A DNA stretch of 64,000 nt from Nitrosomonas stercoris (GTDB taxonomy: Bacteria; Pseudomonadota; Gammaproteobacteria; Burkholderiales; Nitrosomonadaceae), in the NCBI GenBank assembly GCA_006742785.1, contig AP019755.1, positions 930,001 to 994,000 of the forward strand, in the 5' to 3' direction. This document shows positions 10,955 to 22,641 of the stretch, in pieces. A program made the position numbers and the translations under genes. The notes below the pieces were generated by a model. That model searched no databases. It saw only the letters and a program-made list of their open reading frames with translations, and was not told the origin of the DNA. Within the stretch, counting starts at the first letter, position 1. Every line of letters begins with the position of its first letter.

Positions 10955-13258
10955 TTACCATCTGAATCTTATACCACCATAAATCGATCGACCATAACCG
11001 GAATTGAAAAGTGCGGAGTCCGCATCGGCGACTCCAGAGGTCATCGTGGTTGAGATATAACGAGCATTGAGCAAGTTACGTCCTTCCAGATAACCAGACC
11101 AACTTGCGCCGTGATCGTAGCCAATCTTGAAGTTAAAAAGCGTGTACGGATCGATTGCGAGACTATTGGCGTTGTCAGCATAGTAGGACTGTGGCATCCA
11201 TTCCACATTCGGGCCAGCGTGGAAGCCGTTTGAATACTTATAGAGCATTTCGGCACGGATATAATGTGGGGGTATCCCGGGAAGCTTGTTATGACCGAAA
11301 GTAGTATCACCATCAAAAAAGAAATCGCTGTAAGTATAGGCAGCATTGACCCGGAGAGAATCCTTCTGGGTAACGATCCCTTTGAGAAGCGTGGCACCAA
11401 GCCCGACTTCTACACCCTGGTGGATAGTACGATCCGCATTCACCACAGTGCAGAGGCTCCATGGCGCTGTCCTCAGACATTGCAGTTCATTCTTGATTTC
11501 TGCACGATAAAATGAGATATCCCACGTGACATCGGAACGTCGGCCGCGTGTACCGATCTCGTAAGTGGTCGCAGTCTGCGCATTAACAGTTGAACTGGCA
11601 GTCGTCATGAACGTATTTGCGTCAAAAGTTGGTACCTCGACACTCCGCGAGATATTCGCAAATATCTGCCACTCCGGATCAATATCCCAGAGCACGCCCA
11701 CTTTGGGGCTAAAGAAGTCGTAGGTGCGGCGGCCTGATTGATCACCATCCGACAGAAACCGATCCTTTCGATCCCGAACCGCATGCAAAAACTGTCCACC
11801 CGCAATGAGTGCGACATTCTGCAGGACGTAGAAACTATTTTCTGCATAGACTGAGTAGTTCTGCGATTTATCCAACGTAGACACCGCCAGATCACCTTTC
11901 ATTGCACCATCCAGATTCACGAACTCCTGACTGTTGTTTTCACCATTATGGACGTTCACACCGACAATGAGACGGTTGCGAAAACCCTCAATGACACGAT
12001 CATCGGTCACGCGAGCAAAGCCACCATAGTCATAAACGTAATAATCGAGATATCGGAAAATCGGATGATCCACGTGACGATGATGGCCAAAAGCGCCAAA
12101 ATCTACCGTAGTAGGGCCAAAGCGCAGGGTTGTCTTATTTGCAAGACGCACTGAATCAATGTTGCGCTGCTGGTTTTGTTGTACGAACTCGGGATCTGCA
12201 CTTCGTGGCGCGTTTAACGCCACACTCTTGGTCAACTCGCCAGGTAGCTGCTGGCGCCACGTGTTTGCATTGATATAGAAACGTGTTTCGGCATCCGGTG
12301 AAAATTGATAGCCGAAATTTATGTTGCCACGCACGACATGACCTTCACTATGTTCACGGAATCCATCCTCATGTTGCGCTGATACGGCTGCGAACCAGTC
12401 CACGGGGCCGTGCACACCCGCCATGCTTGCCTGTCCTCGAACAAAACCAAAGCTTCCCGCATCAAAACGGCCATCAAAAGTGGGCGCATCGTAGCCCGTT
12501 GGCGTAACAAAATTGACCGCTCCACCCAATGCATTGGCACCGTATCGTAGCGCATTCGCCCCCTTGAATACTTCGACATAGCGGTAGGCACTCGGATCTA
12601 TTTCGAAGAGATCGAACAGGCCATCAGCGGTATTAACTGGAATCCCATCCATGTACATATTCACACCACGGTTACCGTAGTTACGCGTCAAACCGGAGCC
12701 GCGAATCGACACCCGATTGTCAATATTTGATTTGGGCTGCGCGATGACACCTGGTACCCAACCGAGAATATCCTTGGCCGTACTTGCTGGCCCACTCTTG
12801 AATACAGTCTCCGGCACTACCTCAACCGCGCCGGGTGTCCGCTGAATATTGGCTATGGCCTGGATCATATCTGGAACAGTCAACGCCCCTCCGTCTCCCG
12901 CAGTAATAGTGATCTCGGGCAGGATCGAACGTGTATTTGCAGCGACTTGTTTGATCACGACCATATTATTATCGGCTATTTCGTATTTCAACTGGCTTTT
13001 ATCCAGCACCCGACTCAGCGCCTCTGCCAGCGTAAAGTTCCCCCGTAATGGCGGAGCCTGGTGATCTCGAGTCGCTTCATCCGCGTAAATCATCTTGGTA
13101 CCAGTTACAGCAGCCAGGCGATTCAACGTAGAGGAAAGTGGCTGTGCAGGAAGATTGAAGGAATAAGTGGCCATATCTTGCGCGTTGGTAATATTGACCC
13201 ACAACAAAATCAGTAGTGGCAATAACCCAAATAATGACTTCATCAGCGTTTTCTCCAA
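10955..13258 (-). CDS. TonB-dependent outer-membrane receptor with STN signalling domain (FecA type)
   Basis: The protein has 767 residues. A signal peptide ends near residue 27 (ITNAQ). An STN domain at about 32-103 (FNLPAQPLSSTLNRLAAVTG) shows that it signals to a FecR/FecI pair. A TonB-box-like EITITAG is at 115-121, a plug domain spans about 130-250 (GVNMYMDGIPVNTADG, GANALRYGANALGGAVNF), and a 22-strand barrel ends in IRFRW with a terminal aromatic residue. Such receptors take up ferric siderophores or other bulky iron complexes. The ligand cannot be read from the sequence. A second in-frame Met at residue 6 is an equally possible start. FecR and FecI genes lie directly upstream in the same direction, so this is a complete transport-and-signalling unit. 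Confidence 0.93.
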   Translation of the reverse strand: MEKTLMKSLFGLLPLLILLWVNITNAQDMATYSFNLPAQPLSSTLNRLAAVTGTKMIYADEATRDHQAPPLRGNFTLAEALSRVLDKSQLKYEIADNNMVVIKQVAANTRSILPEITITAGDGGALTVPDMIQAIANIQRTPGAVEVVPETVFKSGPASTAKDILGWVPGVIAQPKSNIDNRVSIRGSGLTRNYGNRGVNMYMDGIPVNTADGLFDLFEIDPSAYRYVEVFKGANALRYGANALGGAVNFVTPTGYDAPTFDGRFDAGSFGFVRGQASMAGVHGPVDWFAAVSAQHEDGFREHSEGHVVRGNINFGYQFSPDAETRFYINANTWRQQLPGELTKSVALNAPRSADPEFVQQNQQRNIDSVRLANKTTLRFGPTTVDFGAFGHHRHVDHPIFRYLDYYVYDYGGFARVTDDRVIEGFRNRLIVGVNVHNGENNSQEFVNLDGAMKGDLAVSTLDKSQNYSVYAENSFYVLQNVALIAGGQFLHAVRDRKDRFLSDGDQSGRRTYDFFSPKVGVLWDIDPEWQIFANISRSVEVPTFDANTFMTTASSTVNAQTATTYEIGTRGRRSDVTWDISFYRAEIKNELQCLRTAPWSLCTVVNADRTIHQGVEVGLGATLLKGIVTQKDSLRVNAAYTYSDFFFDGDTTFGHNKLPGIPPHYIRAEMLYKYSNGFHAGPNVEWMPQSYYADNANSLAIDPYTLFNFKIGYDHGASWSGYLEGRNLLNARYISTTMTSGVADADSALFNSGYGRSIYGGIRFRW

Positions 13259-13327
13259 TCAGAAATATGTAAAGCATCTGTTTCTTGATGTTCTGTCTAA
13301 TAAGACGTAAAAAGCACACTGAACTGG

Positions 13328-14293
13328 TCACATTTTTTTATCTGCCCAATCAATCAATAGCGATTTGTTGCCCGGCAGCGGTTTCACCCTGACCGGCAGA
13401 ATCTTTTCCAGACTGCTGAGAAAAAACGGCAAATCATCCGTGCCGAATGTGCCGCTCAAGGTTTCGCGCGCAATAGCGGGGTCAAGGAAAACAAAATGGA
13501 TCGGGTGATAGCGTTCCAACTCGGCTACTACTCGCCCCAACCGTGTTTGTCGGAACACCAACTGCCCATGCTGCCAGGCTTCAACTTGCCCGATATCGAT
13601 CGGTCGCAACAAAGTACGTGGATCAGCATAGGGTGAATAATACTGCTGATACCCTGCATTCAGACGTACTCCATTGATTTCTACAGCTCCTTCCAACACT
13701 GTGACCAGGATCGGGCCTGCCTGCTGTTTGTGCACGTTGAATCGGGTACCGATATCACGGATCTGCAGCGCACCTGCATTTACAATGAAAGGACGCCAAA
13801 TTTCATGCTGAACATTGAAAATAGCTTCTCCCGTATCCAGCATGATCTTGCGCTGCAAGGGAGAAATACGGACGGACAGGCGAGTGGCTGTATTCATGAT
13901 GATACTGCTGCCATCCGCAAGAGTAACGCGATGCTGCTCTCCCAATTGCGTGGAATAAATTATGGTTTCAGCACTGTATTCCAGCCAACCGACTCTCATC
14001 AGCACAGACGAGATCAAAAAAAACACAGCCCAACCGACTACGTTGATTGATTTGCGTTTGGAACGCCATTGTCTGGCTTCACGCAAGCCAGGGACATCAG
14101 CAGCTTCTTTAAGTCGATCTACCTCAGACCACAAGCGTTCGGCATGCGCATAGGCCGCCTGATGAGCTTCGCTTTTACAGAACCAGTGATTGAATCTTTG
14201 CCTGTCCTCATCCGTACAACTCTCGGATTGCAATAAAAAAAACCAGCTCAATGCCTGCTTGAGCAACCGCTCACTAGGAGAACGAGAAGACAT
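13328..14293 (-). CDS. FecR-type anti-sigma factor / sigma regulator
   Basis: This 321-residue inner-membrane protein has an N-terminal cytoplasmic DUF4880 segment (RQRFNHWFCKSEAHQAAYA), one membrane helix at about 85-105, and a periplasmic FecR domain (VTLADGSSIIMNTATRLSV). It would sense the ligand-loaded STN domain of the receptor and activate the FecI-like sigma factor. It lies between the sigma-factor gene (15 bases upstream) and the receptor gene (69 bases downstream), in the standard fecI-fecR-receptor order. Confidence 0.93.
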   Translation of the reverse strand: MSSRSPSERLLKQALSWFFLLQSESCTDEDRQRFNHWFCKSEAHQAAYAHAERLWSEVDRLKEAADVPGLREARQWRSKRKSINVVGWAVFFLISSVLMRVGWLEYSAETIIYSTQLGEQHRVTLADGSSIIMNTATRLSVRISPLQRKIMLDTGEAIFNVQHEIWRPFIVNAGALQIRDIGTRFNVHKQQAGPILVTVLEGAVEINGVRLNAGYQQYYSPYADPRTLLRPIDIGQVEAWQHGQLVFRQTRLGRVVAELERYHPIHFVFLDPAIARETLSGTFGTDDLPFFLSSLEKILPVRVKPLPGNKSLLIDWADKKM

Positions 14294-14308
14294 ACGCCGA
14301 TCAGGTGA

Positions 14309-14800
14309 TCATACGCTGCGGTGGCAATGCAGCATGGCTTGCACCAAGCGTCGCTGCACGGTTTTTTCAGAAATATTCAAGCGGATGGAAATTTCTCTAT
14401 AACTGAGCCCGTCAATCTTGCGCAATAAAAACACATCGCGACAACCTTGTGGCATGGTGGCTATAGCATCTATCAGAATACTGCATTGCTGCCTGAGACT
14501 GACTATTTCTTGCAGTTGGGGCAACGGACACGGCTGCGCTTCATCGAGTAGCAGATACTCTATTTTATTCAAAGGATCACGTTGATAATCCACCGCCAGA
14601 TTATGACCAATCTGGAATAAATAGGCGGATAGATTCAGTACATTCGACAAATCACGGTTGTCCAGTAGCCGCATATAGGCTTCCTGTGCCAAATCGGATG
14701 CTGTTTCTCGACAACCGATCAGACGATTAATCCTGCTAATCAAACGCAATCGATACTGCTTGTAAAGCTTGGTAAAGCTTGGAGAATCTAAAGAGGACAT
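14309..14800 (-). CDS. FecI-type ECF sigma factor
   Basis: This extracytoplasmic-function sigma-70 factor of 163 residues has region 2 around ASDLAQEAYMRLL and LSAYLFQIGHNLAVDYQR. Region 4 contains a helix-turn-helix in DGLSYREISIRLNISEKTVQRRL. It directs RNA polymerase to the promoter of the receptor gene once FecR is triggered. The length is typical of FecI. Iron control, probably through Fur, is expected from the family, but I could not point to a clear Fur box in the 160 bases upstream. Confidence 0.93.
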   Translation of the reverse strand: MSSLDSPSFTKLYKQYRLRLISRINRLIGCRETASDLAQEAYMRLLDNRDLSNVLNLSAYLFQIGHNLAVDYQRDPLNKIEYLLLDEAQPCPLPQLQEIVSLRQQCSILIDAIATMPQGCRDVFLLRKIDGLSYREISIRLNISEKTVQRRLVQAMLHCHRSV

Positions 14801-14962
14801 GGCTGTGGCAATAAAAGAGAAGAGTGCCGTATTTATTATTTATTCAGATCAGATTATCCTGGCAAAACAAAGAAATGAGAATGCGACAAATTGTCGCACG
14901 GGAGAATTATCAAAACCACGGGGCCCATCCGGAATTTCGTGAGCGAGATGCGGTACTACTCA

Positions 14963-15103
14963 GAGCCTGTTCAAAGTCTCTGGGAATATGAGAAACGATT
15001 ACCCGAGCGACATTAGTCGCGAACAATTTGAGCTTATCAGGCCTTTACTGGAGAGTGCGCGCAGGAAGACTAACTCTCGACGAATAGATCTGTACGAGGT
15101 GTT
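14963..15103 (+). mobile_element. IS5-family remnant, left end and transposase N-terminus
   Basis: GAGCCTGTTCAAAGTCTC at 14963-14980 has the look of an IS5-family terminal repeat. It is followed from ATG 14988 by DISREQFELIRPLLE and RIDLYEVFW, the same N-terminal block as the transposase at 62085 (DISKEKFAEIEPLL, TIDLYEVF). The similarity stops at about 15103, where the frame runs into a different, IS1595-type sequence. The element is therefore truncated and dead. Confidence 0.75.
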
Positions 15104-15356
15104 TTGGAAAAAGATATCATTTTCTGCAGCGATGGCGCGGTTATTTATCAACCCGCGGCCCGCAGACTTGAAATCACCCACTGTCCCGTCGACCTTGCTG
15201 CCGGGGTTCGAGTCATCTGTTGCAACCCGGTATCTGGAAAATTACCTGGGATGGTTCAGGTGGTTCGATCAACAGGAAAATCTCAGTTCAACTATTGTCG
15301 GACTACAAGCCGCTCTCGGCCGGGAAAATCAGTTTCAACTGTTAACGAATACATAG
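15104..15356 (+). pseudogene. IS1595-family transposase 3' remnant (right copy, frameshifted)
   Basis: Two overlapping plus frames give consecutive pieces of an IS1595/ISXO2-type transposase C-terminus. The first has FCSDGAVIYQPAARR and ITHCPVDLAAGVRV. After a frame change or deletion the second has VATRYLENYLGWFRWFDQQ, running to LQAALGRENQFQLL and a stop at 15354-15356. The usual central 'HIQNVNAYHSRLK' block is missing. The remnant is joined directly to the IS5-family fragment on its left and overlaps the 3' end of the TauE/SafE gene on the opposite strand. Confidence 0.8.
15272..15345 (+). repeat. 74-bp direct repeat, right copy
   Basis: This is the partner of 10836-10909, with five visible mismatches and the same orientation. 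Read on the minus strand it supplies the last 17 or so codons and the stop of the TauE/SafE gene. Confidence 0.9.
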
Positions 15357-16146
15357 CTTTGATCAACATGCTCAACGCAATACACCAGGCTAGAATAGCA
15401 AAACTACGTTGCAGACTGGCTTCATCAAAAATATGTGTACAACGTTTGCCAAGTAGCGTTCCGGCAACGGTTCCAGCGGTAAAAGGCAGTGCCAGTGCCC
15501 AATTCATAAATCCCATGGAAGTTGCTGACACAACTCCAGCCAAAGAAATCAAGGCAGTGATGGAAAGTGCAGTGGCAACCAGCATTTTCATAGGTAAATC
15601 AGACACTTTGCGCAAGGCAGGCACAATGATGAATCCACCGCCCACCCCAAGCAGACCAGATAAAAATCCGGTTGCAGTGCCAGCGGCAAACAATCCCTTG
15701 GCGCAAGGAATAGTCCATATCAAACGACCACTTTCCAGACTAAGCTGGCAAGGTGGAATCACTATTACCGGCTGTGCAGCAGATGCATGGCTCTTGTGAT
15801 ACATATACCAGGCGGCATATGCTAACACTGCGGAAAATAATATTGTCAGTAACGCATCAGAAAACTGCTGCGCTACCCAGATGCCAATCGGTGTAATCAG
15901 CATGCCTGTCCCTGCTATCAGGCTGGCTGCCCGATAGCGCACAACGCGTTCTCTGAAGGAAGAATAGGTTGCTACTGCTGCTGATACTCCGACTGATAAT
16001 AATGCAACCGGCGCAGCTTCCGCTACCGTTGCACTCAAGCCGAAAACCAACAGCGGGACCGCCACAATAGAACCACCTGAGCCAGTCAACCCAAGCACGA
16101 AGCCTGCAAGTATCCCTGGCAAAATCCCGAGCCACTGAATTTCCAT
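15292..16146 (-). CDS. TauE/SafE-family sulfite/organosulfonate exporter
   Basis: This polytopic inner-membrane protein (284 residues, about eight hydrophobic segments) carries the family's repeated glycine-rich motifs (GFVLGLTGSGGSIVAVPLL near the N-terminus and GFLSGLLGVGGGFIIVPAL in the second half). Members export sulfite, sulfonates or related oxidised sulfur products. It is the last gene of a leftward operon, 11 bases after the DUF442-SQR fusion, which fits removal of sulfite or thiosulfate made from sulfide. The C-terminal 17 residues (TVETDFPGRERLVVRQ) are encoded by the complement of an IS1595 remnant, so the native end of the protein was probably replaced. Confidence 0.9.
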   Translation of the reverse strand: MEIQWLGILPGILAGFVLGLTGSGGSIVAVPLLVFGLSATVAEAAPVALLSVGVSAAVATYSSFRERVVRYRAASLIAGTGMLITPIGIWVAQQFSDALLTILFSAVLAYAAWYMYHKSHASAAQPVIVIPPCQLSLESGRLIWTIPCAKGLFAAGTATGFLSGLLGVGGGFIIVPALRKVSDLPMKMLVATALSITALISLAGVVSATSMGFMNWALALPFTAGTVAGTLLGKRCTHIFDEASLQRSFAILAWCIALSMLIKAMYSLTVETDFPGRERLVVRQ

Positions 16147-16157
16147 GCAGGACTGAT

Positions 16158-17819
16158 TTATTTCGATTCAGTTGATCCGGCAAGCCATTCACGTCCTTTC
16201 AGTAAGCAATCCCAGTATACCCATGGGAAAAGATTGACTTTCATCCACCAATACAACTTGCGAGGAAGCGTTGGACTTAACGGAAAAGTCGGTAGCAATT
16301 TTCCACCATAGCCAAATTCAGCCAGAACCACCTTGCCGTTCTCAACTGTTAGTGGGCAGGCACCGTAACCATCGTAAACCGCGCGCATTTCACGCCCTTC
16401 TTTTGCTGCTATTAGATTTTCAGCAACAATGACCACTTGTTTTCTGACTGCAGCAGCCGTTTTAGAATTAGGCGCAGAGCAGGCATCACCCAGCGAGAAG
16501 ACATTGGAAAAACAGGTACTTTGCAAGGTTTTCGCGTCTACTTCACAATAGCCAGCAGCATTGGCTAATGCACTCTTGCTTAGAAAATCAGGAGCTTTCT
16601 GTGGTGGCGTGACATGCAGCATATCAAATGATTTATCCACACGAGTAACTTCACCTGTTTCGTTTTTAACTTCAAAAGTAGCTATTTTTTTCGAGCCATC
16701 TACTTTGACCAAGTTGGAATTGAATGCGAGATTGGCATTGTATTTATGCACATACTTCATTAAAGGTGGTACAAATTCTGATACCCCAAATAACACTGCC
16801 CCTGCCAGATCGAATTCTACTTCAATTTTGTCCAGCACCCTTTTACGCTGCCAATAATCACAAGATAAATACATGGCCTTTTGAGGTGCACCAGCACATT
16901 TAATCGGCATGGGTGGCTGAGTAAAAAGCGCTTTTCCCTCTTTAAGCTCTTGCACTAATGACCAGGTATAGGGTGCCAGATCAAACACATAGTTGGAAGT
17001 TACACCATTTTTACCGAGTGTTTCCTGAAGTCCTTCTACTTTATCCCAGGCCAGCTGAATACCTGGGCAAACAATCAGTTGACGATAACCAATCGAACGG
17101 CCATCCGTTAAGTTAACTAAGTTTTTTTCCGGAGCAAACCCAGCAGCAGCAGCCTTGATCCATTCCGCGCCTTTGGGCATCACATCTGCTGTATTGCGAG
17201 CAGTATCGTTAATTGCATAAGCACCGCCACCGACTAATGTCCAGGCTGGCTGATAATAATGTTTTTCACTGGGTTCTACCACGGCAATACGCAACGCCGG
17301 GCGTCGTTTCAACAAGCTCGCTGTCACCCCCAAACCACCTGATCCGCCTCCTACTACCACCACATCAAATACGTTATCCCAGTTACAAGCAGCAACCGTT
17401 TCTGCCTGGCGTTTATCGACCGGTTCACAATACGCTTCCGTTCCCTCTGTTCCGGTTTGAGTAGCTGCAGCATCGGTATTATTGGTATACAGCGCCTGAG
17501 CACGATTACCAGAACCACAAAAGGCCAGTACTGGGCCTGGCAATGATTGCATCAATTGATGAAAGGCAGAACATTTATCATCGGATACCCGGCCTACTTC
17601 AACTGGCATATAAGCAAATTGTAATCCCGCTGCCTTTGCTGCACCTTCTAACGCAGCACTAGCAGGCTGACTCTCTCCACCTTCTCCATCCGGACGATTG
17701 CAAATAATTGATTTATAACCCGCTGCTGCAATATCAGCGACATCGTCCACGCTGATTTGGCCGGTGACCGCTATTTTTTTGTCCAGTTCTTTCCACTTTG
17801 TTGCAGAAGTAGCATTCAT
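16158..17819 (-). CDS. DUF442 phosphatase/rhodanese-like domain fused to sulfide:quinone oxidoreductase
   Basis: A fusion of 553 residues. Residues 1-115 form a DUF442 (Blh-type) domain with a tyrosine-phosphatase-like loop CGSGNR (Cys101). From about 150 a flavin-dependent oxidoreductase begins with VVVVGGGSGGLG (dinucleotide binding, 154-164). The two redox cysteines expected of the human-SQOR type are present: Cys308 in PIKCAGAPQK and Cys447 in GDACSAPNSKTAAA. The C-terminus is amphipathic (KLYWWMKVNLFPWVYW), suited to membrane attachment. It would oxidise sulfide to a persulfide at the inner membrane and pass electrons to quinone, with DUF442 possibly handling the persulfide. In BigR-type loci DUF442 is normally fused to the dioxygenase instead. 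An AAGGAG ribosome site precedes the ATG. Confidence 0.88.
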   Translation of the reverse strand: MNATSATKWKELDKKIAVTGQISVDDVADIAAAGYKSIICNRPDGEGGESQPASAALEGAAKAAGLQFAYMPVEVGRVSDDKCSAFHQLMQSLPGPVLAFCGSGNRAQALYTNNTDAAATQTGTEGTEAYCEPVDKRQAETVAACNWDNVFDVVVVGGGSGGLGVTASLLKRRPALRIAVVEPSEKHYYQPAWTLVGGGAYAINDTARNTADVMPKGAEWIKAAAAGFAPEKNLVNLTDGRSIGYRQLIVCPGIQLAWDKVEGLQETLGKNGVTSNYVFDLAPYTWSLVQELKEGKALFTQPPMPIKCAGAPQKAMYLSCDYWQRKRVLDKIEVEFDLAGAVLFGVSEFVPPLMKYVHKYNANLAFNSNLVKVDGSKKIATFEVKNETGEVTRVDKSFDMLHVTPPQKAPDFLSKSALANAAGYCEVDAKTLQSTCFSNVFSLGDACSAPNSKTAAAVRKQVVIVAENLIAAKEGREMRAVYDGYGACPLTVENGKVVLAEFGYGGKLLPTFPLSPTLPRKLYWWMKVNLFPWVYWDCLLKGREWLAGSTESK

Positions 17820-17912
17820 AATGGTTTCTCCTTACTTTAATTTTACTGCTCGGTTTGATACCAAATGCGTATCCGTACTGTGCAATATGTTTACAAATTC
17901 AACGCGTACTAA

Positions 17913-18329
17913 TTAATCCTGTTTTTCCAAATCGGGTTGATTGCTATCTGTATCAGCCAATCCTGCACTACTACTATTTTTTTGCTGCACAATCAGAGCA
18001 TTTTCATCTTGGCAGTATAGAGCAAATAGTGTGCCAATAATTTGTACCACTTCACGACTGGCAAGCTTGTAATAAATATATTTGCCTACGCGCTTGGTCG
18101 AAACCAGCTCTTCCTCACGCAAGACAGAAAGTTGCTGCGACAGGGTCGGTTGCCGAATACCGAGCAATTGCTCCAGTTCACTGACATTTTTTTCCCCTTC
18201 CACCAGTTGGCACAAGATCATCAAACGGTCTTCATTGGCCAAGGTTTTCAACATGGAACAAGCTTTGCCTGCAGCAGCTTTTTTTTTCACCATTGTTGAT
18301 AAATCCCATTGTATATATGAATTTGTCAT
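17913..18329 (-). CDS. ArsR-family persulfide-responsive repressor (BigR/SqrR-like)
   Basis: From ATG 18329 the protein has 138 residues with an ArsR winged helix (LANEDRLMILCQL, then GIRQPTLSQQLSVLREEELV). Cysteines 40 and 106 fall where BigR and SqrR have the pair that forms a tetrasulfide with persulfides (about positions 41-42 and 107-108), one in the recognition scaffold and one in the last helix (LFALYCQDE). Cys24 is extra. The frame is open further upstream, but ATG 18329 overlaps the stop of the preceding YeeE gene (TAATG), which favours coupled translation from there. It should repress its own operon and the divergent dioxygenase gene until sulfide appears. Confidence 0.88.
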   Translation of the reverse strand: MTNSYIQWDLSTMVKKKAAAGKACSMLKTLANEDRLMILCQLVEGEKNVSELEQLLGIRQPTLSQQLSVLREEELVSTKRVGKYIYYKLASREVVQIIGTLFALYCQDENALIVQQKNSSSAGLADTDSNQPDLEKQD

Positions 18330-18787
18330 TATTTGCCAATATTTTTCTGTTGCGAATGATCCAAATGCGTATTGCGATATTTTTCCAGCCAATCAAACAC
18401 AGCCATACCCGCTAACATTGCTATCACAAAAATAATTCCTGCCAACTGACCTGAGGCTGCCAATACTAATCCTGGCCCCGGACAAAGCCCTGATAACCCC
18501 CAGCCGATACCAAACAGTAAACTACCCAGAATCAAACGATGATCAATTACGTGAGAAGTAGGCAAATGCAGCGGCATTGACAACAGTGTTTGACCACGTT
18601 GTCTTACCCACCTGAAAGCAAAAAAACCGATACTAATCGCACCTAACATCACCAGTGCCAACGAAGGATCCCAGGATCCGGCTACATCCAGAAATGCCAA
18701 TACCTTTGCCGGATTGATCATCCCAGACAAAATTAATCCCAAACCGAAAATTAGTCCAGAAAACAATGCAGCAATTATGACCAACAT
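18329..18787 (-). CDS. YeeE/YedE-family membrane protein, second half-transporter
   Basis: About 152 residues from ATG 18787, which has a GGGAGT ribosome site. Earlier in-frame starts (18805, 18817) would overlap the previous gene. It has four or so membrane helices and the family motif WGLSGLCPGPGLV, whose cysteine matches a conserved site in YeeE/YedE (TsuA-type) transporters. E. coli TsuA imports thiosulfate, and in BigR operons these paired short proteins are thought to move sulfur species. This one is the partner of the 18792-19229 product. Confidence 0.85.
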   Translation of the reverse strand: MLVIIAALFSGLIFGLGLILSGMINPAKVLAFLDVAGSWDPSLALVMLGAISIGFFAFRWVRQRGQTLLSMPLHLPTSHVIDHRLILGSLLFGIGWGLSGLCPGPGLVLAASGQLAGIIFVIAMLAGMAVFDWLEKYRNTHLDHSQQKNIGK

Positions 18788-18791
18788 GCTT

Positions 18792-19229
18792 TTACTCCCA
18801 ACCATGACGTACAACATAGACTATTGCCATGCCCATCAACATAAATAGAACAGTTGCCACAATTGAACGTGGTGAAAGGCGCGATAGACCACACACCCCA
18901 TGCCCACTGGTACAACCAGAGCCATAACGGGTACCGATTCCGACCGCGAAACCGGCCAAAGCCAAGATTGCGTAATTACTTTCAATGTGGACAGGAGGCA
19001 ATGTTCCCAATTCACGCCACAACCAAGGTGCGAGTAACAAACCGCTAACAAATGCCGCTCGCCAAGCAAAATCTCTCCGCTGTAATCGGAGTAAACCACC
19101 AACAATGCCTGATATTCCTGCGATTCTCCCGGCAACAAATAACAGCAGTGCTGTGGCCAGACCTATGATCATCCCACCTGAAAATGCACTTACTGGCGTA
19201 AAAGCTTGCCAATCAATCATAGCAATCAT
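18792..19229 (-). CDS. YeeE/YedE-family membrane protein, first half-transporter
   Basis: This first gene of the leftward sulfide operon encodes 145 residues with about four membrane helices and the family signature GSGCTSGHGVCGLSR. That motif complements the CPGP motif of the next gene, so the two short proteins together resemble one full-length YeeE. An AGAGGA ribosome site sits six bases before ATG 19229. The promoter must lie in the 134-base AT-rich gap shared with the divergent dioxygenase gene. Confidence 0.87.
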   Translation of the reverse strand: MIAMIDWQAFTPVSAFSGGMIIGLATALLLFVAGRIAGISGIVGGLLRLQRRDFAWRAAFVSGLLLAPWLWRELGTLPPVHIESNYAILALAGFAVGIGTRYGSGCTSGHGVCGLSRLSPRSIVATVLFMLMGMAIVYVVRHGWE

Positions 19230-19275
19230 ACGTTTTCCTCTTGACAGATAAATAATATTAACACACTATATATTT

Positions 19276-19314
19276 TAATAATTTATTATTTTATATATTG
19301 AATTATTTGAATAT
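19276..19314. promoter_or_regulatory. Candidate operator for the BigR/SqrR-like repressor
   Basis: The shared intergenic region of the divergent sulfide genes is almost pure A/T. It holds a perfect 13-bp palindrome TAATAATTTATTA (19276-19288) and a second imperfect dyad, ATATTG to GAATAT (19295-19314, eight of ten half-site positions matching). BigR operators are AT-rich dyads, so these are good candidates. The assignment is inferred. Confidence 0.5.
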
Positions 19315-19363
19315 GAACTGAATCCATACACCAAATCAACAAATCACCTAGGGAGAGAAAATA

Positions 19364-20227
19364 ATGCAAGCAAATATCCAGGCTTTCTTTGATCCTGCTA
19401 CCTGGACAGTCAGCTACATCGTGTTCGACAAGCCAGGAGGTCACTGCGCCATTATTGATCCAGTGTTGGACTACGATCCTAAATCTGGACGAACCAAACA
19501 CCATTCCGCCGATATCTTGATTAAATTCGTACGTGCTCAAAACCTAACAACCGATTGGTTGCTGGAAACTCACGCACATGCTGATCATCTTTCTTCCGCC
19601 CATTACCTGCAGCAGCAACTAGGCGGTAAAACAGCCATAGGCAGTCAGATTCCTGCTGTACAACAGTTTTTTAAGAAACTATTTAATTTAGGAACAAATT
19701 TTCAGCCCGATGGCTCACAATTTGATCATCTGTTTAGCGATGGAGATACTTTTCAGGTAGGGGAGTTACAAGGTAAGGCAATTCTTGTGCCTGGACATAC
19801 GCCGACCGATCTTGCTTATCAATTTGGTGACGTTATTTTCATTGGTGATACGATGTTCATGCCTGATGTTGGGACAGCACGTGCTGATTTTCCTGGTGGA
19901 GATGCGCGCCAACTTTATCGTTCTATCCGCAAACTGCTGGATAATTATCCACCAGAAACAAGGTTATTAATGTGTCACGACTATCCACCTGGAGATCGTC
20001 CGGTACAGTGGGAAAGCACTGTTGCCGAGCAACGTGCCAATAATATTCACGTCCGCGATGGAATTAGCGAAGATGAATTTGTTGCAATGCGTACTACACG
20101 TGATGCAACGCTGGATGTTCCGGTACTGATCCTGCCTTCCATTCAGGTCAACATCCGGGCAGGACAAATGCCACCGGTGGAAGACAACGGCACAACTTAT
20201 TTGAAGATACCAATCAATAAACTATAA
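19364..20227 (+). CDS. Persulfide dioxygenase-type metallo-beta-lactamase-fold protein
   Basis: This 287-residue protein has the metallo-beta-lactamase signature THAHADHL (His70, His72, Asp74, His75), a later VPGHTPTD and a metal-bridging Asp in IFIGDTMF. The pattern is that of Blh/ETHE1-type persulfide dioxygenases, which use one Fe(II) to oxidise glutathione persulfide to sulfite. It lacks the DUF442 domain that the Blh proteins of Xylella and Agrobacterium carry; here that domain is on the SQR protein across the divergent promoter. A GGGAGAG ribosome site precedes the ATG. The product sulfite would be the natural cargo of the TauE/SafE exporter. Confidence 0.9.
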   Translation: MQANIQAFFDPATWTVSYIVFDKPGGHCAIIDPVLDYDPKSGRTKHHSADILIKFVRAQNLTTDWLLETHAHADHLSSAHYLQQQLGGKTAIGSQIPAVQQFFKKLFNLGTNFQPDGSQFDHLFSDGDTFQVGELQGKAILVPGHTPTDLAYQFGDVIFIGDTMFMPDVGTARADFPGGDARQLYRSIRKLLDNYPPETRLLMCHDYPPGDRPVQWESTVAEQRANNIHVRDGISEDEFVAMRTTRDATLDVPVLILPSIQVNIRAGQMPPVEDNGTTYLKIPINKL

Positions 20228-20240
20228 CAATACTTGTTGC

Positions 20241-20286
20241 CATTTTTTGGCCAGCTAACTGTAACAGGTTGACTGGCCAAAAAATG
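20241..20286. terminator. Bidirectional intrinsic terminator
   Basis: A perfect 14-bp inverted repeat, CATTTTTTGGCCAG (20241-20254) and its complement (20273-20286), sits between two convergent genes. Each arm ends in a six-base T or A tract, so it can terminate transcription from both sides. Confidence 0.85.
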
Positions 20287-20289
20287 CTA

Positions 20290-20874
20290 CTACCAATAGC
20301 GAACGTTGCCGGTATCCACATGGATAAAGTTCGATTCAGGATAATAACCCACTCCCCCCGCACGCATAGACATAGCCACTTGCTTTAATGTGTTAAGCGG
20401 TACGCCAGGTAAACGGATATCAATTGCTCTGCCTTGCATATGCATGCTTTTCTTGGCAACACCGTTGCTTCTTGCAGCAAGTTTGGCATTAGTCGCTGGT
20501 GAACGATAACCGGAAATTACCTGAAATTCTTTGCTGCTGCCCGTTTTATAGTGCAGTTGTTGAATCAAATCAAGCAGGCTTGGATCAATTGGATGCCGCT
20601 CACCCGAACGATGGTCACGTAACACTGTGGCGATTTCCTGCAACGCTTCCGGAATATATTTTCCTTGCTCCCAGTAAGCGGTCTTGATACGTTCTCCGGT
20701 ATGCAAATTCAACAAGGATAAACGTTTTTCGTAGACACGGGCATAAGCAGCATTGGCTACTGGCATCGCAAACATTGCACATGCACCCAAGCCAACCTGC
20801 AACAATCGGCGACGTGCGCGACCTTGTTCAGTCAACGTTTCTAGATTGTCTGCAATAATCAACTCTGGCATCAA
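20290..20874 (-). CDS. YcbK-like periplasmic peptidase (DUF882, M15A type), Tat-exported
   Basis: The protein has 194 residues. The N-terminus holds a twin-arginine signal (RARRRLLQVGLGACAMF). The mature domain has the peptidase M15A/DUF882 pattern: SGYRSPATNAKLAARSNGVA, then KKSMHMQGRAIDIRLPG and FIHVDTGNVRYW, whose His and Asp residues are zinc ligands in related D,D/L,D-carboxypeptidases. It probably trims peptidoglycan or a related polymer in the periplasm. E. coli carries ycbK next to the L,D-transpeptidase gene ycbB, and the same pair occurs here (48 bases apart, same strand). An AGGAT ribosome site precedes the ATG. Confidence 0.88.
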   Translation of the reverse strand: MMPELIIADNLETLTEQGRARRRLLQVGLGACAMFAMPVANAAYARVYEKRLSLLNLHTGERIKTAYWEQGKYIPEALQEIATVLRDHRSGERHPIDPSLLDLIQQLHYKTGSSKEFQVISGYRSPATNAKLAARSNGVAKKSMHMQGRAIDIRLPGVPLNTLKQVAMSMRAGGVGYYPESNFIHVDTGNVRYW

Positions 20875-20922
20875 TATCCTCCATAATTAGCGAGATTAAA
20901 AATCGTAATAAATATTCCTGGA

Positions 20923-22641
20923 TTACCAATGGGCATAGGCAAGCGCTCGCTCGTCACGTCCGTATACATCAGATGAAAAATGAACTTCATCCTGTTCATC
21001 ACTCCAGGTTGTTAAATACAACAAATAAACTGGCACACGTTCTGCAAGATTCACTGTACGCGTCTTGCCACTGGCTATTTTTTCAGCAAGATCTGCTTGT
21101 TCAAATGCACCTCCCAATACGAACTCAGCTAGTTGTAATGGCCTTTCCAATCGAATACAACCTGAGCTGAAAGTACGAACATCTCTTTTGAACAAATATT
21201 TGGATGGCGTATCGTGCAGGTAAATGCTGAAGGGATTGGGAAACATGAATTTAATGGTTCCTAACGCATTTCTTCTGCCTGGGTCTTGGCGAAAAACATA
21301 GGGAAGGGAGCTACTATTGATCGAATGCCAGTCAATGGAATACGAATCGATCTCAGATTCATATTGGTAATCAGAAAAAACTCTAATACCTTGAGAAACA
21401 AAATAATCCGGATTATTTTTTTGCTTGGGCAACAAATCCTTGCGCGCGATACTACGCGGTACATTCCAGTATGGATTAAGCACTAGATGTGAGATCTTGC
21501 TACTAAAACTGGGTGTTGAACGATAACCGCGTCCAACAACAATACGCATATCAAATATTCGTTCATCATTTTCAATTGCAGCCAGATCAAATCCGGCAAT
21601 GTTAACCAGTATATAGCGCTTACCAAGCTCTTTTGGTAACCAACGCAAACGTTCTAGCGAAATACGTAAACGTCGCACGTGCTCATCTGGTGTCATATTT
21701 AATGCTTGTCGGGTATTTTTACCAATTATACCATCAGCATTTAATCCATATTGACGTTGAAAAGTGCGAATTGCTGTTTCTAGCTGACCGTCATAAAGAT
21801 CATTATCATCTGCAACAATATCGTATTCTGGTTTTTCAAACACATGATGGGCTTCCAGAATGCGTTGACGAATTAACGGGATAGAAGCGTGCCTACTATA
21901 TGGATGAATCGATAAAGCACTTTCCGGTATATGCATTTGTGAGGTTATGTCTGCCAGTAGCCGAAACTCACGCAATGATTGCTTCAATAAACGATATTGC
22001 GGGATACTCGGTAACAAATCAGTGAAAATCTGTTGCAATTCTCCGGAAGCGATTGCTTTATGCAAAAATGCGACTGCATCAAATTTAGATTGTGGAATGT
22101 GCCAATCGGGATCTGCCAAAGCAGCGTCTAATCTACCACGATACCAATCACGAGCAAGAGCAAGTAATGCTCGGGTGATATCCAGTTCCAGTGGCAAAGA
22201 CACTTCATCATAAGACGCCGTTGCATGCTGTGCTTGTAAAAAAGCACTACGGTAATCATCACTGCTCAGCCCTTCTTCATCAGCTTGTTCAATTAGTGCC
22301 AGCGCTGTATTCAGTAAATCAGATGCGTGATCCGACAATACCCACACGGGTTGATAATCACGCTGGGCATAAAATCGCTGCAAATTTTTCTGTTCACTGT
22401 CACCCTGATAACTCGCAATATTACTTGTCAGTTGTGCACGAATTGATTCTGCATCCACAATAGCCAGATTTTCAGCCCTTGCAGGTGACGTTGTTGCTAG
22501 CAATATCAGAATGGTTAAACAATATGATAAAGTCAGAAAAGTAAACGTAGGCCGTAACTTCAGCGGTATTTGAACAAACAACAGAAGAATATTTTCTGTC
22601 TGAACCGCAAAGTTCGTCACTCGTCTGATTATTCTTTGCAT
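20923..22641 (-). CDS. L,D-transpeptidase of the YcbB/LdtD type
   Basis: At 572 residues, the protein has a membrane or signal segment at about 30-55, a scaffold domain, a peptidoglycan-binding repeat (YDGQLETAIRTFQRQYGLN, GIIGKNTRQALN) and a YkuD catalytic domain with SIYLHDTPSKYLF and the active-site SSGCIRLERP. It forms 3-3 cross-links in peptidoglycan, can bypass penicillin-binding proteins, and acts in the periplasm. The length matches YcbB. It is probably co-transcribed with the DUF882 gene downstream and runs divergently from dnaA. Confidence 0.93.
   Translation of the reverse strand: MQRIIRRVTNFAVQTENILLLFVQIPLKLRPTFTFLTLSYCLTILILLATTSPARAENLAIVDAESIRAQLTSNIASYQGDSEQKNLQRFYAQRDYQPVWVLSDHASDLLNTALALIEQADEEGLSSDDYRSAFLQAQHATASYDEVSLPLELDITRALLALARDWYRGRLDAALADPDWHIPQSKFDAVAFLHKAIASGELQQIFTDLLPSIPQYRLLKQSLREFRLLADITSQMHIPESALSIHPYSRHASIPLIRQRILEAHHVFEKPEYDIVADDNDLYDGQLETAIRTFQRQYGLNADGIIGKNTRQALNMTPDEHVRRLRISLERLRWLPKELGKRYILVNIAGFDLAAIENDERIFDMRIVVGRGYRSTPSFSSKISHLVLNPYWNVPRSIARKDLLPKQKNNPDYFVSQGIRVFSDYQYESEIDSYSIDWHSINSSSLPYVFRQDPGRRNALGTIKFMFPNPFSIYLHDTPSKYLFKRDVRTFSSGCIRLERPLQLAEFVLGGAFEQADLAEKIASGKTRTVNLAERVPVYLLYLTTWSDEQDEVHFSSDVYGRDERALAYAHW

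Follow-up and report, generated by a model that had tools for sequence, protein, structure and literature searches.

Is the attachment of a DUF442 domain to a sulfide:quinone oxidoreductase (SQR) the mark of a new kind of sulfide detoxification system, or does it represent a known design? The question is raised by a six-gene locus at positions 15292-20227 of a 64,000-nucleotide (nt) stretch of Nitrosomonas stercoris DNA (AP019755.1, positions 930,001-994,000), hereafter called the window. The locus comprises a leftward set of genes, encoding two YeeE-type half-transporters (YeeE1 and YeeE2), an ArsR-type repressor, the DUF442-SQR fusion and a TauE-family protein, and a divergent gene for a persulfide dioxygenase (PDO). 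A first-pass annotation of the window had described it as a rewired BigR/Blh system, in which DUF442 had moved from the dioxygenase, to which it is fused in Blh, to the SQR. Our results show instead that the DUF442-SQR fusion is a widespread and already studied design, largely inherited in the Pseudomonadota, and that the locus belongs to a known type.

Distribution, precedents and ancestry of the fusion

In a phylum-level sample of 398 Pseudomonadota genomes, DUF442 matches were found in 138. At least 20 genomes of this sample have the SQR fusion, as opposed to at least 5 with the DUF442-PDO fusion Blh (eight genes). All 20 genomes with the SQR fusion among the matches listed also have a stand-alone PDO gene within that stretch. 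No listed genome carries both fusions, an observation that does not amount to a test of exclusion. A class-level sample of 369 genomes yielded the SQR fusion in seven (the window, L090, L092, L157, L159, L160 and L161, the last with only a weak PDO match) and Blh in one (L093); the window and L157 belong to both samples. Architectures were assigned by sequence for open frames of at least 287 amino acids (aa) and for automatically returned loci, and shorter frames, including those of 282 and 285 aa, were classed as stand-alone by their length.

The closest relatives of the fusion among 80 related loci are those of Nitrosomonas eutropha Nm24 and Nitrosomonas sp. HPC101 (87%). The six-gene order of the window recurs in 23 of these 80 loci, with several others ending at contig edges. 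On plasmids, at least 80% of the fusion is matched in one place in 56 of 258 matching records; many of the 40 records listed bear a RefSeq name beginning with 'bifunctional protein tyrosine phosphatase family', and one is named 'DUF442/Sulfide:quinone oxidoreductase'. An example of the former, the 'bifunctional protein tyrosine phosphatase family protein/NAD(P)/FAD-dependent oxidoreductase' WP_065658830.1 from a plasmid of Agrobacterium tumefaciens, is 50.5% identical over 99% of the protein. Like the window, the A. tumefaciens plasmid locus has genes for a metallo-beta-lactamase-fold protein, an ArsR regulator and TauE nearby, but the plasmid cassette (L169, 3632-8505) contains a peroxiredoxin gene between ArsR and DUF442-SQR and no annotated YeeE pair in that stretch.

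The fusion is also in print. DUF442 has been described as a domain with rhodanese activity in the SQR of Cupriavidus pinatubonensis JMP134, where it forms thiosulfate from glutathione persulfide (GSSH) and sulfite, with Cys94 as its sole conserved and essential cysteine (PMC6441731) and Arg99 of its CRTGTR loop as a critical residue (PMC8533005). The SQR/pdo2/yedE1E2 genes of this strain resemble the window in combining an SQR-borne DUF442 rhodanese domain (128 residues) with a PDO and a paired YedE (PMC6441731, PMC8533005, PMC10812762); the accessions AAZ62946.1 and WP_011299713.1 were taken as one gene, that of the JMP134 SQR. The corresponding loop reads CGSGNR here, and Cys94 and Arg99 would be equivalent to Cys101 and Arg106 by loop position rather than by alignment. 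With at least 20 fusion-bearing genomes and a studied homologous domain (PMC6441731, PMC8533005), the view of the fusion as a novel architecture falls, on the very finding (common occurrence and prior description) that the first-pass annotation had named as its refutation. Among the titles of the literature on sulfide detoxification in nitrifiers, we found no account of a DUF442-SQR fusion in Nitrosomonas.

Two further systems share parts of this gene set. The BigR/Blh operon of Xylella fastidiosa and A. tumefaciens includes a BigR-type dithiol repressor, a dioxygenase, a DUF442 rhodanese and TauE (PMC5823870), but carries DUF442 on the dioxygenase, and Blh-type dioxygenase domains form a separate clade. 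DUF442 can thus sit on either enzyme, as had been proposed. In Acinetobacter baumannii, BigR controls yeeE-yedE-pdo2, that is, a YeeE pair and a PDO as in the window, whereas SQR belongs to a separate FisR operon (PMC7315123).

The ancestry of the domains was examined in unrooted trees after near-copies from Nitrosomonas and Achromobacter had been removed by hand, retaining 58 of 105 SQR, 109 of 148 DUF442 and 60 of 97 PDO rows. Four loci duplicating others (L001, L083, L097 and L110) are excluded from the domain sets; L002 and L084 represent one gene, both being counted among the 61 stand-alone DUF442 rows, and the DUF442 tree also omits L002 and rows no longer than 80 residues. The nine dioxygenase domains of Blh make up a single clade (100/100 support) from which stand-alone PDOs are absent. 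In the DUF442 tree, which is built from 103 columns and 109 rows and has many open forks, eight of the nine Blh domains form one clade away from all 47 SQR-fused domains, and the ninth (L093) joins a stand-alone domain with weak support. The Blh set comprises nine genes from six genomes and lacks a named Xylella or Agrobacterium Blh, which makes this a limited test. Within these bounds, nothing shows that the DUF442-SQR fusion derives from Blh. Of the 58 rows in the SQR tree, 47 carry the fusion, the state changing between fused and unfused five times; the unfused rows are those of Achromobacter, Nitrosospira, Methylophilaceae and one Nitrosomonas metagenome-assembled genome (MAG), and two others. 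Two of the Methylophilaceae loci (L057 and L058) have DUF442 as a separate gene adjoining SQR. Since roots were not inferred, gain and loss of DUF442 are indistinguishable in these changes.

The fused protein and the divergent dioxygenase

An open reading frame (ORF) check recovered six ORFs where the first-pass annotation had placed them, and Pfam and NCBIfam assign them to TauE, BLH_phosphatase (DUF442) plus Pyr_redox_2, ArsR helix-turn-helix, DUF6691/Sulf_transp, Sulf_transp and metallo-beta-lactamase, respectively (Table 1).

Table 1. Features of the locus in window coordinates.
Feature	Position	Strand	Basis
TauE/SafE-family anion exporter (predicted)	15292..16146	-	PF01925, 153.8 bits
DUF442-type II SQR fusion, 553 aa	16158..17819	-	Pfam/NCBIfam; sequence and fold match to human SQOR
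SQR redox Cys488 (place of human Cys379)	16356..16358	-	SQOR alignment; conservation
SQR redox Cys308 (place of human Cys201)	16896..16898	-	SQOR alignment; conservation
DUF442 catalytic loop CGSGNR, Cys101-Arg106	17502..17519	-	conservation in SQR-fused rows
ArsR-family BigR-like repressor	17913..18329	-	best solved structure 3pqj; Cys40 and Cys106
YeeE2 half-transporter (DUF6691/Sulf_transp)	18329..18817	-	PF20398, 177.8 bits; PF04143, 34.3 bits
YeeE1 half-transporter	18792..19229	-	PF04143, 23.2 bits (under cut-off of 27)
Operator-like palindrome, candidate repressor site (weak)	19265..19299	.	matrix from 12 other loci
Stand-alone PDO, ETHE1/PDO type	19364..20227	+	PDB matches; Blh-model alignment; conserved His/Asp set

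In the fused protein, DUF442 occupies residues ~11-112 and the SQR residues ~149-549. The DUF442 part exceeds the curated cut-offs of Pfam (86.1 vs 26.1 bits) and NCBIfam (TIGR01244; 93.7 vs 85.85 bits), and its catalytic loop, already recognised in the first-pass annotation, retains Cys101 and Arg106 in all 78 SQR-fused rows. Another cysteine of this domain, Cys40, is present in 68 of the 78 SQR-fused, none of the 9 Blh and 18 of the 61 stand-alone rows, a distribution that provides too few independent pairs for a tree-aware test. It lies 61 residues from Cys101 (59-61 in the 68 fused rows having both), resembling the spacing of 60 between Cys34 and Cys94 in JMP134.

By sequence and fold, the flavoprotein half is assigned to the type II SQRs and not to the type I enzymes or flavocytochrome c. 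It is 40.5 and 41.5% identical to two proteins annotated as type II Sqr, and human SQOR is its best solved relative in sequence searches (E 4.5e-100, with other solved families at E 1.4e-24 or weaker) as well as by Foldseek. Fold comparisons, which covered about residues 147-548, placed human SQOR at the top for both AlphaFold2 models: for model 1 (45 rows, mean predicted local distance difference test score (pLDDT) 87.6) with Z 55.8 and a root-mean-square deviation (rmsd) of 1.5 over 399 residues, the next non-SQOR entry reaching Z 42.4, and for the poorer model 2 (28 rows, mean pLDDT 75.4) with Z 32.6, as opposed to 28.6 for the next non-SQOR entry, and an rmsd of 3.4 over 380 residues. The linker between the domains is of low confidence in both models (residues 116-137 and 115-146, respectively). 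Human SQOR shares the type II fold and both redox cysteines with the N. stercoris protein, but is mitochondrial and lacks DUF442.

The cysteines of human SQOR aligned with Cys308 and Cys488 are those that we take to be its redox pair, and the offset in numbering agrees with the structural alignment. In the SQR alignment, a cysteine is conserved at position 308 in 103 and at position 488 in all of the 105 rows. The first-pass annotation had singled out Cys308 and Cys447; both residues exist, but Cys447 was rejected as the second redox cysteine, given that it faces a threonine in human SQOR and is a cysteine in only 59 of the 105 rows, and the aligned partner is Cys488. Assignment to the type III selenoprotein SQRs (NF049943) was likewise rejected: although no NCBIfam model matches the flavoprotein half better, the score of 199.7 bits lies far below the cut-off of 525.

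The divergent protein is, judged by its relatives, a stand-alone PDO. It matches the structures 9g8t, 4ysk and 4efz, deposited in the PDB as metallo-beta-lactamase proteins, at E 3e-110 to 5e-110, and human ETHE1 is among its solved relatives (E 9.5e-16). Compared with the Blh model NF040641 (cut-off 625), it scores 388.3 bits over positions 141-423, and the DUF442-SQR fusion 71.5 bits over positions 3-121 only. Residues His70, His72, Asp74, His75, His145, Asp162 and His205 are found in 98 of 99 rows, with a gap in the remaining one; the HxHxDH motif together with His145, Asp162 and His205 corresponds to the metal-ligand set of the family.

Additional DUF442 genes were seen in several places. 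A stand-alone copy lies directly 5' of the DUF442-SQR gene in L135, L141 and L055, which places two DUF442 copies in tandem, and another downstream of TauE, on the opposite strand, in seven Nitrosomonadaceae loci (e.g. L011, L012 and L031). The N. stercoris genome itself has a second DUF442 protein, in a 182-aa frame (G000:C1:2091077-2091370; L084), which the DUF442 tree places apart from the SQR-fused domains.

Promoter gap, repressor and transporters

The leftward genes are closely packed: YeeE1 and YeeE2 overlap, YeeE2 and the repressor gene abut at 18329, and gaps of 93 and 11 nt separate repressor from SQR and SQR from TauE, making a single operon plausible. The divergent gap (19230-19363, 134 nt) has a GC content of 23.1%, compared with 45.4% for the window, and ranks 123rd in AT-richness among 63,866 windows of the same length. 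The ORFs, family matches and GC figures thus agree with the gene arrangement and AT-rich intergenic region noted in the first-pass annotation, and its view of the host as an ammonia oxidiser is borne out by two copies of amoA in the genome. Rfam gave no family over threshold within 14800-21000. Genes for a TonB-dependent receptor, a FecR-like protein and an extracytoplasmic function-type sigma factor adjoin the locus (10955-14800).

The best solved match of the repressor is 3pqj, a 'Biofilm growth-associated repressor' (E 8.5e-24). As noted before, it contains Cys40 and Cys106 (counted from the start at 18329), which are conserved in 72 and 70 of the 75 rows, respectively, and lie 66 residues apart, as do Cys42 and Cys108 of BigR (PMC5823870). 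A clear two-arm operator site between PDO and the leftward genes exists in Achromobacter and a few other loci, and the two-arm pattern reached p <=0.05 in 27 of the 54 gaps examined, which include many near-copies (4 of 58 gaps, longer than 300 nt, were left out of the operator tests). A matrix derived from 12 chosen loci scored 10.0 at the candidate site, the maximum over the whole window (best outside the gap, 4.1); this score was equalled in 4 of 300 shuffles of the gap, with matrix and gap both being AT-rich. Of the 25 gaps adjoining YeeE1 that were scored, a set to which that of the window belongs, 16 reached p 0.05 and 9 failed; 9 of the 17 other repressor-side gaps scored are Achromobacter near-copies of the matrix set. 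Perfect two-arm sites (ATATTGAC-N13-GTCAATAT) are found between PDO and DUF442-SQR in L045 and L077, and no repressor gene was found in the stretch examined of either locus.

TauE and YeeE2 pass their Pfam cut-offs, and YeeE1 misses its own. Conserved cysteines are Cys112 of YeeE2 (57/57 rows) and Cys106 (56/56) and Cys113 (53/56) of YeeE1. The first-pass annotation had proposed a complete route from sulfide through sulfite to export. Detoxification is supported as the role of the locus, but the YeeE pair more probably takes up zero-valent sulfur than contributes to export: YedE1E2 of JMP134 has been reported to speed the import of zero-valent sulfur, not its export (PMC10812762), which argues against all transport here being outward. 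The 3' end of TauE is overlapped by a repeat remnant (14940-15420) that has matches at 21 further sites in the genome, including 16 copies of 126 nt with equal scores, and the last dozen or so TauE residues extend past the point where closely related proteins end (e.g. L003 and L004). An ORF at 14988-15356 has no Pfam match at 0.001.

A probable detoxification route and its alternatives

We consider it likely that the locus encodes an ordinary aerobic cassette for the detoxification of sulfide and sulfane sulfur, composed of SQR, PDO, DUF442, transporters and a persulfide-sensing repressor, as suggested by homology, conserved residues and analogy to characterised systems. In this respect, the first-pass annotation is supported: an ammonia oxidiser carries a locus for sulfide and persulfide detoxification, and its repressor is BigR-like. 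The SQR half would oxidise sulfide via Cys308, Cys488 and flavin adenine dinucleotide, passing electrons to quinone and releasing a persulfide such as GSSH, which PDO may then convert to sulfite. As in the JMP134 homologue, the tethered DUF442 domain could use Cys101 to transfer sulfane sulfur to either glutathione or sulfite, with thiosulfate as the product in the second case. Sulfite and/or thiosulfate would leave through TauE, zero-valent sulfur may enter through YeeE1/YeeE2, and the dithiol repressor is predicted to sense persulfide at Cys40/Cys106 and to regulate the two promoters by binding within the 134-nt gap. A comparable sequence has been described for Escherichia coli producing the JMP134 SQR, which turns sulfide into zero-valent sulfur that PDO2 oxidises to thiosulfate (PMC10812762), and sensing of the BigR type has been demonstrated in homologues (PMC5823870, PMC7315123). 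By analogy, we infer that the same steps may take place in N. stercoris, with thiosulfate as a main product and the repressor binding to the gap.

Several points weigh against this reading. All 18 Achromobacter loci have an SQR of the same family without DUF442, beside a similar cassette, and DUF442 was not found in the stretches examined of any of them; one Nitrosospira and one Nitrosomonas MAG likewise have a same-family SQR without the fused domain. DUF442 is therefore not indispensable. Moreover, thiosulfate forms spontaneously from persulfide and sulfite (PMC8533005), so that its appearance alone would not show DUF442 at work. On the regulatory side, the sulfide genes of JMP134 are described as activated by FisR, not BigR (PMC9774590), whereas a BigR-like repressor is encoded here. 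This protein scores 104.1 bits with the BigR equivalog model NF040642, under the cut-off of 155, and is for this reason called BigR-like rather than BigR. In addition, the two-arm pattern is not recognisable in the gap of the window (p 0.23), and the candidate site, which overlaps the segment 19276-19314 highlighted in the first-pass annotation, lends weak support to an operator.

The unfused SQRs of Achromobacter, Nitrosospira, one Nitrosomonas MAG and the Methylophilaceae also speak for the idea that the DUF442 half is a passive appendage, with the SQR working alone and the fusion mainly keeping both at one dose. The low model confidence of the linker and the non-enzymatic route to thiosulfate (PMC8533005) would fit as well, but the invariance of Cys101 and Arg106 in the fused rows and the activity of the JMP134 domain (PMC6441731, PMC8533005) make a passive role unlikely. 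It is quite unlikely, too, that the locus serves energy conservation rather than detoxification, with sulfide as an extra electron donor: SQR chemistry is generally known to feed the quinone pool, but PDO reactions are described as giving no energy conservation (PMC12345210), and a BigR-type dithiol repressor fits stress control. Finally, a move of DUF442 from the dioxygenase to the SQR, which would account for its different position in Blh and in the window and for the repressor, YeeE pair and TauE common to some Blh loci (L149, L151 and L156), is highly improbable and was rejected, with the dioxygenase domains and eight of the nine DUF442 domains of the available Blh genes in clades of their own in the unrooted trees and no sign of transfer, SQR-fused domains not nested among them, an SQR fusion no less common than Blh among the phylum-level genomes and already in print, and its occurrence on a plasmid of one strain of A. 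tumefaciens, the very species used for contrast in the first-pass annotation.

The DUF442 domain of nitrifiers might act as a swinging arm that hands sulfur from the SQR directly to sulfite, such that thiosulfate rather than sulfite would be the main export and the enzymes of ammonia oxidation would be shielded from persulfide and sulfite, a tentative and rather doubtful proposal. More generally, similar cassettes carry DUF442 on the SQR, on the dioxygenase or as a gene of its own next to that for the SQR, or lack it altogether, and they constitute a natural experiment on what the domain contributes. In ammonia oxidisers, the locus represents a candidate basis of sulfide tolerance, which may be useful where nitrifiers meet sulfide.

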